From: Chitinispirillum sp.
Lineage (GTDB): Bacteria; Fibrobacterota; Chitinivibrionia; Chitinivibrionales; Chitinispirillaceae
Reading direction: 5' to 3'
Length of the DNA: 51,070 nucleotides
NCBI GenBank assembly: GCA_007115975.1
Contig: SKJJ01000050.1
Coordinates: 1-51,070, forward strand
Below, piece after piece: positions 35,343-50,818 of this stretch (the first letter of the stretch is position 1; each line of letters starts with the position of its first letter). The position numbers and the translations under genes were made by a program. The notes beneath the pieces were generated by a model. It searched no databases and had not been told where the DNA came from. It saw only the letters and a program-made list of their open reading frames with translations.

Positions 35343-35435
35343 ACTGTAAAATTCACTTTGGATTTTCCTCTTCAGATCCTATTTTTTTACTCTATACTTA
35401 ATGAATTAACTTTCTTTTGGTGGAAATCTCTTTAT

Positions 35436-36572
35436 ATGAAAACGTATCATCAGTCTGTTATCAGGGTCAGTGAAGGCGTGGCCCGTTTCTTCAACACTGT
35501 ATTTACAAAGATTACCATAGACGGTCCGGTGCTTGACGCCCAGGAGCTGCAGCAGAATCCATTGATGATAGTGAGCACCCACAGAAGCCACATAGACTAC
35601 TTCTTTGCGGGCAAAATGATGTATTTCAAAGGGTTCCGAAACCTTCGATTTGCAGCAGGAGACAATCTTACAAAGCTTCCCTACATTGGCCCCCGGTTCA
35701 GAAATTTTGGGGCGTTTGCCGTTTCAAGGGAGAATGGATTTAAGCGCAGCTACATCCGCAATCTCTGCAATGATGTGATAAAAATGATGGATGGAGGGGA
35801 CATTGTGCTGGTCTTTCCCGAGGGAGGGCGAAGTTACACGGGAAGTATGCTTGAGATCAGGGGTGGGATTCTTAACTCCGCGATTCTTCTACAGGCCAGA
35901 AACCCGCACAAAGATGTGCGTATTCTTCCCATGTCCATTTCCTATGAGTGCGCTCCTGATGTGCCCTGGTTTTCCCTTCTTCTCAGGGGTAAAAAATTCA
36001 GGGACCGGTCGAATCCTGCTCTGAAAAGATTTTTGGGGAGTGTTTACTATTTTGGCGCCGATTTACTTGCCTTTATGCCCATTTTTTTATACCGGATATT
36101 CCGAAGCAATTATGGTGAGATTTACAGCGATTACATGGAGCCACTTTTGGTTAAGGATCTCATCGATATCGAGGGCAACAAAAACTGCAACGCCAAAGAT
36201 GAATTTTTTGCTCACCGGGAATCGCTTAAGCTGCTCAGCAACAAGGTATATGCACACTTTATCTCTCTTTACAGAATACTTCCCATGCATCTGGTGGCTG
36301 CAGCCCTGCTTTTTCAGAAAAAGGGTACGATCGACTTGACAATTCTAGAAAACAGAGTAAAAGAGGTGTATAGTGAAGCTGCTCAGAAGGGGTTAAATAT
36401 CAAGTCTGTTGCGGATCTTAGTGCAGATCAGATGGTTGCAAAAGGGTTACAACAGCTCCGCAGGTACAAGGCCGTTGGCAAAAAGGCAAATCGCTACTAT
36501 ATCAAAAAAGCAGAAATAGTACACTACTGTGCATCGGTTCTCAACGTTCCCCAAGAGGTGCAGCCACAATGA
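35436..36572 (+). CDS. PlsB-like glycerol-3-phosphate/lysophospholipid acyltransferase
   Basis: The 378-residue protein has an acyltransferase domain with the H-x4-D motif (H49-D54, STHRSHIDY), a GDNL/FAVSR motif II region, FPEGGRS (motif III, about 143-149) and a later P-x-S-I-S-Y-E motif. This fits a GPAT/DHAPAT-type enzyme (PlsB group) that acylates glycerol-3-phosphate in the inner membrane, though at half the length of E. coli PlsB. The ATG at 35436 has GGTGGA about 11 bases upstream. The frame is open back to a TTG at 35358. It overlaps the next gene by four bases (ATGA). Confidence 0.85.
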   Translation: MKTYHQSVIRVSEGVARFFNTVFTKITIDGPVLDAQELQQNPLMIVSTHRSHIDYFFAGKMMYFKGFRNLRFAAGDNLTKLPYIGPRFRNFGAFAVSRENGFKRSYIRNLCNDVIKMMDGGDIVLVFPEGGRSYTGSMLEIRGGILNSAILLQARNPHKDVRILPMSISYECAPDVPWFSLLLRGKKFRDRSNPALKRFLGSVYYFGADLLAFMPIFLYRIFRSNYGEIYSDYMEPLLVKDLIDIEGNKNCNAKDEFFAHRESLKLLSNKVYAHFISLYRILPMHLVAAALLFQKKGTIDLTILENRVKEVYSEAAQKGLNIKSVADLSADQMVAKGLQQLRRYKAVGKKANRYYIKKAEIVHYCASVLNVPQEVQPQ

Positions 36573-37975
36573 ATTTTGAGCGATATTGTGTAATTCCTAC
36601 CGTTTTGGAGCTGAACTCAGGTGAGAAAACAGATGCGCTGAGCGAACTGGCCACTGCAGCCTGTAAAGTTCTGGCTATAGAGTCGACCAAAGAGGTCATT
36701 GACGAGATGCTTAAGAGGGAGGAAAATTCATCCACCTTTGTGGGACAGGGGGTGGCACTGCCTCAGACAAAAGCACCTCTTGAGAGTGAGTTTGCAATAG
36801 TTGTTGGCCGGAGCACTTTGGGAATACCCTATGATGCGGCCCGTAACGCTCTGGCCCAGATTATCATTTTGCTTATTGCGCGCCAGGATGCAGATCCAAA
36901 CAGCCAGATAACAGTCCTCTCTGAGTTAGCAGCCGCCTTCAAGTCTGAGCAGGCCAGAGAGCAGATCCTCAATGCCCAGAGTCCTATTAGTCTCATAGAG
37001 ATTTTTGCCAATCTGAGAACAGGTACACCGGAGGAAACGGTTGTGCTCAAGGAGAAGAAAAAAAGTGCTGCACCTATTATTACTTCTGCCATGACACTGG
37101 CACGCGAAACAAAGGCTGCAGCAATAATGGTTTTTGCCGACAGTGTACGGGACAATGATTTTCTCGATCAGATAAGAAACAGAAACAAAATCATTATAGT
37201 GACAAGCAATAAAACGAGATTTGAGCACAGAAGGGACAAAAGGATCCAGGGAATTATCCAGGCTCCCCCGATCCCGACATCAAGGACCGGGCAGATAAAA
37301 ATCGGTATTCTTCTCGCTCTTTCGCGCAATCTGATCAGGAGAGATGACTGGGTGGTATGCGTTTCGGGCAATTCCAGAAGCAACGTTTTCGATACACTGG
37401 TAACCGTCGATGTAGCCCTGGAGTATGAGTTTTTCTTTGTAACGTCGCAGGACCTTCTTCCCCCTGATGTCAAACCGGAGGTACTTGAGAGGATTATCGG
37501 TCTTGCAGGTGAGATCGCCGTTGAAGGGAGAGAGGGCAGACCAACGGGAACGGTTTTTGTCCTTGGGGACACCAATTCGGTCAACAAGTTTGTGCGCCAG
37601 CTCATAATCAATCCCTTCAGGGGGTATAGCGAAGCGGAGCGTAACATAATGGACCCGGGGCTTGTTGAAACCATAAAAGAGTTTTCCAGTATTGACGGAG
37701 CCTTTATAGTAACCGGGGATGGAATAGTATTATCAGCCGGCAGCTATTTGCGCCCTCAGCTCTCCACCAAGGATCTTGAACTTTTACCCGGAGGCTTCGG
37801 GGCACGTCATGCTGCAGCATCGGCTATTACAGCCTGTACCAACGCACTGGCTATTACCATTTCGGAATCCACGGGCATGGTTACCCTTTTTAAGGGCGGT
37901 TCAACTATGATGTCCTTGTCGAGGCCTGTGGTGCGGGACAAGCAAAACGTACAGAAATTCGGCTCGTTTCAGTAA
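36569..37975 (+). CDS. Fusion of a degenerate PTS EIIA-like domain, a pyruvate-kinase-C-like domain and a diadenylate cyclase (DAC) domain
   Basis: The 468-residue protein has three parts. Residues 1-155 resemble PTS EIIA type 2, but the active-site motif reads GQGVALPQ (59-66): Gln66 replaces the phosphorylatable His. Residues 168-285 have an alternating alpha/beta pattern like the C-terminal pyruvate kinase domain (TLARETKAAAIMVFA). Residues 300-468 form a DAC domain with D376-G377-A378 and R413-H414-A415 (canonical DGA and RHR; the last Arg is Ala). The product is probably c-di-AMP. A PK-like domain before DAC recalls archaeal DacZ. The gene overlaps the acyltransferase gene by four bases. 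Catalysis must be tested because of the RHA change. Confidence 0.8.
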   Translation: MNFERYCVIPTVLELNSGEKTDALSELATAACKVLAIESTKEVIDEMLKREENSSTFVGQGVALPQTKAPLESEFAIVVGRSTLGIPYDAARNALAQIIILLIARQDADPNSQITVLSELAAAFKSEQAREQILNAQSPISLIEIFANLRTGTPEETVVLKEKKKSAAPIITSAMTLARETKAAAIMVFADSVRDNDFLDQIRNRNKIIIVTSNKTRFEHRRDKRIQGIIQAPPIPTSRTGQIKIGILLALSRNLIRRDDWVVCVSGNSRSNVFDTLVTVDVALEYEFFFVTSQDLLPPDVKPEVLERIIGLAGEIAVEGREGRPTGTVFVLGDTNSVNKFVRQLIINPFRGYSEAERNIMDPGLVETIKEFSSIDGAFIVTGDGIVLSAGSYLRPQLSTKDLELLPGGFGARHAAASAITACTNALAITISESTGMVTLFKGGSTMMSLSRPVVRDKQNVQKFGSFQ

Positions 37976-38058: not shown

Positions 38059-39402
38059 ATGCAAAAGATCTGGTATGATGACCGTTTTCTGTCCGATTAT
38101 ATCTCCCAGGGTGAAATCGAAAATTATAATCCCGCCCTCAGTGAAGCATTAAAGATGCTTAATGAGAAGAGCGGGCCCGGAAACGACTATCTTGGCTGGC
38201 TTGATCTGCCGTTGAAAACCGATGCATCCCAGATTGCTGCAATAAAGGAGAAAGCAGAGGAGATCCGTTCAAAAGCTGACGTACTCATCTGTATCGGTAT
38301 CGGCGGCTCCTACCTTGGTGCTAAGGCGGCAATTGAGTTCCTCTCTGCGTCATTTGAAGACCTCAGAAAGCCACGCGTTGTTTTTGCAGGGCACACGATC
38401 AACTCCGACTATCTGGGTGATCTTCTTGAGCTGCTCAAGGATAAAGAGGTTGCGGTAAATGTAATCTCAAAAAGCGGCACCACTACAGAGCCGGGCATCA
38501 CCTTCAGAGTGATTCGTCAATGGATGGAGGAGCGCTACGGCAGAAAAGAAGCAGCTTCCAGAATCGTTGCCACAACCGACCCCAACGCCGGAGCGTTAAG
38601 AAAACTTGCCCATGAAGAGGGGTACGCCTCCTTTGGCATTCCTTCAGATGTTGGAGGGCGATTTTCTGTTCTCACTGCTGTAGGGCTGTTTCCGATCGCG
38701 GTTGCAGGTATAGATATAGCAGCTCTTGTTGAGGGGGCAGCACAGGGGTATGAGCTTTGTGCACCCGAAGGCGTGGATAAAAATATTGCCGGACGTTATG
38801 CCGCAGTGCGCAACATTCTTTTCAGGCGGGGCTATACCACAGAGGTAATGGCTACGTTTCAACCCCAGCTTCACTTTATAAATGAGTGGTGGAAACAGCT
38901 GGCAGGGGAGAGTGAAGGGAAGAACGGAACCGGCATATTCCCTGCAGGGCTTGACTACACAACAGATCTTCACTCCCTTGGCCAGTGGATGCAGGAGGGG
39001 GTACGGTCCGTATTTGAAACATTTATGGTCCTGAAAAACACCAACGCATCCGTTACCGTGCCGTCATTCGATGATGACAGTGACGGTTTAAATTATCTTA
39101 GCGGCAAGAGCTTTGAACAGATCAATGAAAAGGCATACCAGGGAACACTGCTTGCGCACCTTGACGGAAGCGTTCCTGCGGCAACGCTGATGCTTCAGGA
39201 CAGATCAGAACACACTCTTGGGCAACTGCTCTATTTCTTCGAGAAAGCGATCGCCATCTCGGGTTATATGCTCAGGGTTAATCCTTTTGATCAGCCGGGA
39301 GTTGAAGCTTACAAGAAAAACATGTTTGCGCTTCTTGGAAAATCCGGCTATGAGCAACAGCGAGACCAGCTGCTGCTCAGAACCAAGGATATGAGCCTAT
39401 GA
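38059..39402 (+). CDS. pgi: Glucose-6-phosphate isomerase
   Basis: The 447-residue enzyme is of the shorter bacterial type. It has the sugar-binding SIS motif [34 protein letters not shown] and [14 protein letters not shown]. The C-terminal signature [13 protein letters not shown] carries the catalytic lysine. It interconverts glucose-6-phosphate and fructose-6-phosphate in glycolysis and cell-wall sugar supply. The ATG at 38059 follows GAGAGG by eight bases; an upstream TTG at 37993 is unlikely. It follows the diadenylate cyclase gene by 83 bases and overlaps yjbQ by four, so it is probably in the same operon. Confidence 0.93.
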
Positions 39403-48703: not shown

Positions 48704-50818
48704 ATGAAAAAACTAACATATATATCTTTTCTTATCCTCGTCCCCTTACAGGTGTGGTCAGCCAAACTTCCAGGCATAGACAACGGCATCCTTGATCTTA
48801 GGGGCGTTGATTTATCTGCACACAACAAACCACTTGCGCTTAGCGGTGAGTGGAAATTTTACTGGATGAGATACATCGATCCGGTTGAAAGACCTGATTC
48901 TTCCTACATCATGGTTCAGGTTCCCGATGACTGGATGAATTACTCAATAGATAATGAAAATCTCTCCAGTTTCGGCTACGCTTCGTATCATTTGAGAATA
49001 GTGGTCGACAAGCAAGACAACACTGTTTTCGGCATGAAAATCCCCGCCGTAAACAGCGCTTATACACTTTTTGTAAATGGAAAAGCGATAAGCAGTGCAG
49101 GAATATTGGGGCAAAGTGCAGAAGAAACAAGTTCTCACTTCAAGCCAAAAACAGTCTACTTCAACCACCAGCGCGGCATTATCGATCTTGTTTTTCATGT
49201 TGCCAATTTCGATCTGATACGAAGTGGTCTGCGTGAGCCCCCCTATTTCGGCACATCACAAGCAATTACCGGCACCAGAGAACGTCTGCTCACTCTTGAG
49301 TTCTTCATCTTTGGGGCCATTATGATTATTGCTTTTCAGTACCTTATTATCTACCTCAACAAAAAAAGAGAACTGGTACATCTGTTTTTTTTCCTTACCT
49401 GTCTTTCTGTCGGTTTACGAACACTGTTTATGGGTGAGCGGTATTTTATGTACATCTTTGATGACCTTCCCATTAAGGTGATGATCTTTTTTACCACTGG
49501 CAGTATCTATCTGATATGCGCCTTTTTTATTCTTTTTGTCAAAGAACTTTTTGTTATCAAAGCTGCTGTTTCCCTTACATTGATCAAGTTTCTGATCCCT
49601 TTATTGTTGTTTCAATTTGTTGTAGTACTGTTTGGCTCCCCTGCTACCGGTGAAAAAATGATTGGTTTCATGCAGCTTTCGGCTTTAGCTTCTCTACTAT
49701 TTACGCTCTTTTTAATTTTCAAAGCTGTAAGAGAGAAGTTTGAGGGAGTTAGCCTTATTTTGATAGGATTTACCGTGATATTTGCAGCAGGTATCAATGA
49801 CATTTTGTTCGACAGAAGGCTTTTGTCATTACCGCTTAATGTTTTACCGCTATCAATATTCTTCTTTCTTTTCACTCAATCCGTTCTGCTTTCAAAGCGA
49901 AGTGCTGCAGCCCAAAAAAATATCGAAAAGCTCTCTGAAGATATCAAGAATACCAATACAGCCCTTGCCCGTTTTGTTCCCGAGGAGTTTCTCTTCCACC
50001 TCAGGAAATCCGCCATAACCGAAATAGATTTGGGTGATTATACGGAGAAGAACATGAGTGTTCTGTTTGCGGATATCCGCCGGTTCACCACCATGTCTGA
50101 GCATGCTCCTTCGCGGGAGATCTTTCTTTTCCTTAATAACTATCTGCAGTTCACCGCTCCTGCAATTATCAACAACCACGGCTTTATTGACAAATACATC
50201 GGCGATGCAGTCATGGCCCTCTTTGCAGAAGCGCCGGATTATGCAATTAAGGCGGCCATCGAAATGCAGCAGCACCTTACAGACTTTAACAACACCATGC
50301 TAAAGGGAGCTGAACAACCGGTAGCTATTGGTATAGGAGTTCAGTACGGCAATCTCATGCTTGGAACAATAGGCAGTATAGAGCGAATGGATACCACGGT
50401 AATATCGGACAGCGTTAACATGGCTTCCAGAATGGAAAATCTTACCAAACTGTACGGAGCATCAATCATTACATCTATAGACACTATTACTAAATGCACC
50501 GATCCGTCCAAGTTCAACTTCAGAGCACTTGACACTGTTCAGATAAGAGGGAAAACTAGGCCTACGGAGCTTGTGGAAGTCCTAAACGGACTTGACAATA
50601 AGGACTTTCAGATGAAATGCAGCACCAAAGGTACGTTCGAACAGGGTGTATACGCTTACAAACAGGGAGCACTGAGTGATGCGAGAGAGCACTTCTTCCA
50701 GGTACTGCAGATAAGCCCCGACGATAAAGCTGCAGTATACCTGCTGGCACGGTGCGAAAAATACCTGGCGAAAGGTGTCGATAAGGATTTCACCGGGATT
50801 CAGGTTTTTCACAGCTGA
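48704..50818 (+). CDS. 7TM-DISM receptor adenylate cyclase
   Basis: The 704-residue protein has a signal peptide (about 1-19), an extracytoplasmic 7TMR-DISM-type sensor (about 25-185), seven TM helices (about 195-395), a short coiled coil (about 400-425) and a class III cyclase domain (about 440-605). The cyclase has the metal-binding Asps in LFADIRRFT and GDAVMALF, K in DKYIGDAV (adenine-type), and the NMASR motif with catalytic Asn and Arg. A TPR-like C-terminus (about 640-690, VYAYKQGALSDAREHFFQVLQ) follows. It probably makes cAMP in response to an outside ligand. The start is set by the nearby promoter. Confidence 0.9.
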   Translation: MKKLTYISFLILVPLQVWSAKLPGIDNGILDLRGVDLSAHNKPLALSGEWKFYWMRYIDPVERPDSSYIMVQVPDDWMNYSIDNENLSSFGYASYHLRIVVDKQDNTVFGMKIPAVNSAYTLFVNGKAISSAGILGQSAEETSSHFKPKTVYFNHQRGIIDLVFHVANFDLIRSGLREPPYFGTSQAITGTRERLLTLEFFIFGAIMIIAFQYLIIYLNKKRELVHLFFFLTCLSVGLRTLFMGERYFMYIFDDLPIKVMIFFTTGSIYLICAFFILFVKELFVIKAAVSLTLIKFLIPLLLFQFVVVLFGSPATGEKMIGFMQLSALASLLFTLFLIFKAVREKFEGVSLILIGFTVIFAAGINDILFDRRLLSLPLNVLPLSIFFFLFTQSVLLSKRSAAAQKNIEKLSEDIKNTNTALARFVPEEFLFHLRKSAITEIDLGDYTEKNMSVLFADIRRFTTMSEHAPSREIFLFLNNYLQFTAPAIINNHGFIDKYIGDAVMALFAEAPDYAIKAAIEMQQHLTDFNNTMLKGAEQPVAIGIGVQYGNLMLGTIGSIERMDTTVISDSVNMASRMENLTKLYGASIITSIDTITKCTDPSKFNFRALDTVQIRGKTRPTELVEVLNGLDNKDFQMKCSTKGTFEQGVYAYKQGALSDAREHFFQVLQISPDDKAAVYLLARCEKYLAKGVDKDFTGIQVFHS

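Follow-up and report, generated by a model that had tools for sequence, protein, structure and literature searches.

A DacZ-like diadenylate cyclase fused to an EIIA domain in an uncultured branch of the Fibrobacterota

The control of diadenylate cyclases is largely an open question, and the locus described here raises it in a particular form: what could an EIIA domain of the phosphotransferase system (PTS) do at the N-terminus of such a cyclase when both of its active-site histidines are replaced by glutamine? The component domains are known already; in the literature searched (a 2023 survey of diadenylate cyclase (DAC) architectures lay outside that search), no description of an EIIA-DAC fusion was found. 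If the EIIA part works, phosphate derived from phosphoenolpyruvate (PEP) would control cyclic di-AMP (c-di-AMP), and two global regulators of ion balance would be joined in one polypeptide; the fusion may link PEP signalling to salt balance. In the following, "the window" denotes the whole stretch of DNA that was analysed (51,070 nucleotides).

The fusion gene, its domains and its distribution

The dacZ-like gene (36569-37975, forward strand) is an intact, real open reading frame of 468 amino acids, at the coordinates that the sequence-only reading had given. All features of the gene given below are on the same strand. The encoded protein consists of an EIIA type 2 domain with the EIIA-Ntr fold (residues 14-148; 36608-37012; Pfam PF00359, E = 1e-19), a PK_C-like sensor domain of the DacZ_P type (residues 171-290; 37079-37438; PF21755, E = 5.9e-10, 39.3 bits with a cut-off of 27.4; PF02887, E = 1e-6, residues 170-271, 29.3 bits with a cut-off of 28), and a DAC catalytic domain with the DAC fold (residues 316-445; 37514-37903; PF02457, E = 1.1e-19, 70.6 bits with a gathering cut-off of 27). 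All four Pfam matches (PTS_EIIA_2, DacZ_P, PK_C and DAC) exceed the curated cut-offs, which bears out the three-part architecture proposed earlier. The EIIA and DAC folds, for which a profile and structure search had been suggested, were both recovered by the AlphaFold model (mean pLDDT, 81.6; the 152-166 linker and the tail from residue 453 scored lowest), which matched EIIA-Ntr structures in the PDB with a target TM-score of up to 0.82 and also matched DAC structures of CdaA/DisA. A sequence-only comparison of the PK_C-like domain with the PDB produced no meaningful match. The N-terminal membrane domain CdaA_N gave no Pfam match in the protein, and no DisA-type C-terminal linker/DNA-binding region was found with Pfam; the DAC domain sits at the C-terminus.

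The resemblance to DacZ that had been noticed in the core of the protein was also confirmed, both by the position of DacZ_P/PK_C directly before DAC and by the DAC tree. In the latter (two DacZ rows, DisA not included), the DAC domains of the window form (type A) and of its paralogue (type B) grouped with DacZ against CdaA on a branch with 100/100 support, the branches being long. The best NCBIfam match was DacZ (NF041371, E = 3e-35), with 121.8 bits against a cut-off of 430, i.e., below the equivalog score; judging from the model name (Diadnylcyc_Halo), this is a haloarchaeal-type equivalog.

The same architecture had been expected elsewhere in the Fibrobacterota, and it was found within one order. 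Of the 168 genomes of the phylum searched with the A1 profile (E <= 1e-40), 40 belong to the window's order, and 34 of these matched the EIIA-PK_C-DAC protein; the remaining 128 gave no match. The fusion is therefore order-wide in an uncultured branch of the phylum; a phylum-wide trait was rejected on the same count, the Fibrobacteraceae having CdaA-sized DACs. PTS_EIIA_2 and DAC were both matched in all 35 aligned relatives (DacZ_P in 32 of the 35), so that the fusion is not an accident of assembly; an origin by chance or artefact was rejected also because the identical fusion recurs in those 34 genomes. A contig scan restricted to close relatives gave three loci, and the relatives carrying names were Fibrobacter sp. 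and Chitinivibrionales MAGs. Only haloarchaeal DacZ and an unrelated EIIA were matched in plasmid records; haloarchaeal dacZ genes are annotated there on large plasmids (L090, L091).

Type A was found in 33 genomes (two copies being incomplete at contig ends) and type B, which is about 31% identical to type A, in eight, one of them split into two frames. This split gene (L054, 5226-6553, reverse strand, genome G018) yields 205 and 274 amino acids, perhaps through a frameshift or an assembly error. Both EIIA histidines are kept in the four type-B loci aligned, and a standalone EIIA gene lies beside type B in three of these four. The window genome itself also encodes a type-B EIIA-DacZ-DAC protein (L002/L103) with both histidines intact. 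Some genomes of the order additionally carry a CdaA-YbbR-like DAC. In four genomes of one genus (G009-G012, 68-91% complete), no DAC was found, and the 7TM-HD protein (see below) was kept.

As for the neighbourhood, a PlsB-like acyltransferase frame (35358-36572, forward strand; PF01553, E = 2.6e-21; its true start may be further downstream) ends in a TGA that overlaps the ATG of dac as ATGA. Downstream, pgi for glucose-6-phosphate isomerase (38059-39402, forward strand; start set at the ATG after GAGAGG) follows after a gap of 83 bp, in which no terminator-like site was found. The acyltransferase gene is directly 5' of dac in 29 of the 30 loci with upstream sequence, and pgi is 3' of it in 19 of 31; pgi does not adjoin dac in one clade (g4 with L060), in L037 and in f3. 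The genes next to dac are for lipid and sugar-phosphate metabolism, and no ion-transport gene adjoins it. Elsewhere in the window, a membrane protein (48704-50818) has a C-terminal region that resembles, by eye, a class III nucleotidyl cyclase.

Catalytic residues of the cyclase

The sequence-only reading had pointed to a DGA motif combined with RHA in place of RHR. Both are present (DGA, residues 376-378, 37694-37702; RHA, residues 413-415, 37805-37813), and the departure from RHR proved to be normal for the lineage, with no hint of impaired catalysis. DGA, Arg413, His414, Ser432 and Glu433 are invariant across the 35 sequences. None of the 34 other aligned relatives has Arg as the third RHR-equivalent residue, which is Ala415 in the window protein: types A and B have A, V, I, L or T there, the CdaA-YbbR proteins of the same order mostly Thr, and two annotated haloarchaeal DacZ proteins His (RHH). 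Thus, Arg at this position is unusable as a criterion, and inactivity owing to RHA was rejected. DAC is also the most conserved part of the protein (mean pairwise identity of 0.78 vs 0.51 for EIIA).

These data bear on the idea that the window protein has degenerated into an inactive cyclase (RHA, and an EIIA without His) which serves only as a partner of a second DAC. The non-Arg residue and the presence of a second DAC gene (L002) in the genome would fit it; however, the former is shared by all relatives and by annotated archaeal DacZ, the DGA, R and H residues are invariant, and a Gln-type protein is the sole DAC found in several near-complete genomes (G002, G021 and G027; 98%, 90% and 96% complete, respectively), which makes an inactive enzyme unlikely. 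We regard this idea as very improbable. The window protein is probably active as a c-di-AMP synthase, as judged from its sequence; DacZ of Haloferax volcanii, of the same class, forms c-di-AMP in vitro (PMC6741144).

The EIIA domain and a putative regulatory PTS

The absence of the canonical phosphorylatable histidine, as first read in the window copy, was borne out by the alignment: its position is taken by Gln66 (codon CAG, 36764-36766), and the second active-site histidine is likewise replaced, by Gln113 (CAG, 36905-36907). Gln66 lies in an ALPQTK motif, the EIIA counterpart of which is AIPH. The loss does not define the family, since residue 66 is variable: 18 of 31 type-A orthologues have Gln there, ten have His, two Lys and one Tyr. 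The second histidine is kept in four of the 31 and lost in 27, including six of the ten sequences with His66; both are kept in L066, L067, L069 and L070 (AIPH/AISH context, as in type B). On a tree built with those columns left out, the fewest changes were six for residue 66 and four for His vs non-His, an unrooted count in which gains and losses of His are inseparable. When it was asked whether His66 goes together with the second His, there were only four independent pairs, two of them concordant (p = 0.5). The loss of the histidine is a recurrent state.

For the EIIA domain, three Gln/Gln pairs gave NG86 dN/dS ratios of about 0.03, 0.11 and 0.10, and two His/His pairs gave 0.19 and 0.29, dS being close to saturation. 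Residues R50, E51, S55, A63, G85 and Y88 hardly vary, nor does a YDAAR motif (88-92) that is specific to the family. The domain is under purifying selection, and not decaying, in the Gln lineages too. Within the order, HPr kinase exceeded the cut-off in G030, G031 and G032 (family f4) only; the cyclases of f4, which form a single clade, keep both EIIA histidines.

With positive controls that matched, 38 of the order's 40 genomes had HPr, 39 had EI, and none had EIIC of the PF02378 type, the one EIIC family covered; a PTS sugar transporter of another type (mannose, galactitol, ascorbate or glucitol) may still be encoded. Six EIIA_2 domains were found in the window genome: those of the window protein, of the type-B paralogue and of the neighbour of that paralogue, those of two Na+/H+ exchanger fusions, and that of a gene immediately preceding a set of Mrp-type antiporter genes. 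The two exchangers (L092, 6661-8877 and 9295-11469, reverse strand, contig C159) have a C-terminal EIIA with an intact histidine (PHGK and PHAK), and an EIIA gene with an intact histidine (L093, 5016-5477, forward strand) is followed immediately by MnhE and Mrp-type antiporter genes. In the sampled relatives, we found more exchanger fusions, a P-type cation ATPase carrying EIIA at its N-terminus (L105, 4316-7531, forward strand), an EI fusion, and HTH_17-EIIA proteins beside antiporters, one immediately preceding a CBS-domain Na+/H+ exchanger (L110, 2828-3523) and another divergent from an EIIA-exchanger gene pair (L108, 2979-3689); one EIIA lies beside NADH-dehydrogenase-type genes, and some have no clear partner. 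Note that these contexts come from a chosen sample and are not a tally over all matches. Most of the other EIIA domains examined are fused to, or encoded next to, Na+/H+ antiporters, a P-type ATPase or Mrp genes, and the links between EIIA, cyclase and ion transporters are associations of this kind.

A PgpH-type protein (7TM-HD; 7TM-7TMR_HD) was found in 37 of the 40 genomes; the copy in the window genome has the 7TM-HD layout by sequence. A c-di-AMP riboswitch (RF00379) was found in none of the 40 genomes and was rejected as an output. The window genome encodes RCK_C (TrkA_C), known from other bacteria as a c-di-AMP-binding domain, at three sites; this says little, since RCK_C was near-universal in the controls.

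Taken together, our preferred reading, which we hold with rather more confidence than doubt, is that a regulatory PTS has both ion pumps and a DacZ-type c-di-AMP synthase wired into it, and that EIIA has turned, in the window copy, into a phosphorylation-independent interaction module. A soluble DacZ/CdaZ-type cyclase would convert two ATP into c-di-AMP, and the EIIA-Ntr-like domain would be the input module of a phosphotransferase network with EI and HPr and without a PF02378-type EIIC. In the His66 orthologues and the paralogue with both histidines, HPr may phosphorylate EIIA and so report the PEP/energy state to the cyclase output. In the window copy, where both acceptor positions are Gln, this step would be gone; EIIA most likely stays fixed in a state resembling the unphosphorylated one and serves in protein interaction or allostery, and signals would act through the PK_C-like part and the second cyclase. 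The c-di-AMP formed would tune ion and osmotic balance. Such an output is plausible, since unphosphorylated PtsN governs K+ uptake elsewhere by binding KdpD (PMC9239096) and a connection between c-di-AMP and osmotic balance has been described (PMC6741144). Counted against the preferred reading are the missing riboswitch, the lack of an ion-transport gene beside dac, and the lack of correspondence between the His/Gln state and the occurrence of another DAC in the genome.

Alternatively, EIIA might be a metabolite or ligand sensor, or be independent of the PTS throughout the family, His66 being incidental in some members. The loss of the second histidine in most type-A sequences, even in those with His66, the tolerance of Lys and Tyr at residue 66, and the family-specific YDAAR motif are in favour of this; however, both histidines persist in L066, L067, L069 and L070 and in all type-B sequences aligned, HPr kinase is also present in the genomes of L066, L067 and L069, and HPr and EI are encoded almost everywhere in the order, and we consider this alternative unlikely, though worth some weight. 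Somewhat less probable still, in our estimate, is that the fusion reports how much sugar phosphate is available for making lipids and envelope, rather than serving ion balance; the acyltransferase and pgi would then be its functional partners. Such partners had been suggested by the sequence-only reading, and the neighbours themselves are conserved as described, which lends a lipid or sugar-phosphate role some weight; PK_C domains of pyruvate kinases, moreover, bind fructose 1,6-bisphosphate (PMC6741144). On the other hand, pgi lies away from dac in the g4-L060 clade, L037 and f3, and shared regulation is not proven by a conserved operon. A PTS without a PF02378-type EIIC, together with the EIIA-antiporter contexts, makes ion balance a likelier theme than sugar uptake.

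A wider view, which we put forward tentatively and think somewhat less probable than its opposite, is that an EIIC-less relay is a general salt-and-energy controller of the order, whose outputs would be the EIIA domains within cation transporters and c-di-AMP cyclases, and that the cyclase EIIA has repeatedly been switched between His and a fixed Gln, Lys or Tyr. If it were true, the family would be a natural series showing how a phospho-switch gets locked. The His/Gln series of orthologues is in any case a ready-made comparison of two forms of one enzyme.

Comparison with known systems

The window protein is closest to the DacZ/DacY-CdaZ class of archaea and some bacteria. In this class, the N-terminus has the PK_C fold (PMC6741144), and, as in the window protein, the PK_C-fold domain is combined with DAC in a protein predicted to be soluble; the DGA, RHx and SES motifs are common to DacZ and the window protein. 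The latter differs by its extra N-terminal EIIA, by a sensor of the DacZ_P instead of the DACZ_N type, and by an operon with an acyltransferase gene instead of MscS. CdaA and CdaA-YbbR of the same phylum share the DAC domain and presumably the product, but have an N-terminal membrane domain and lack the EIIA and PK_C-like parts. The type-B paralogue has the same three-part order, whereas its sequence has diverged, its EIIA histidines are both present, a standalone EIIA gene adjoins it, and its neighbourhood is another one. With EIIA-Ntr (PtsN), finally, the window protein shares the EIIA type 2 fold, a regulatory PTS setting with EI and HPr, and a genomic link to ion transport; it differs in that its EIIA is fused to a cyclase and has Gln at both active-site histidine positions.
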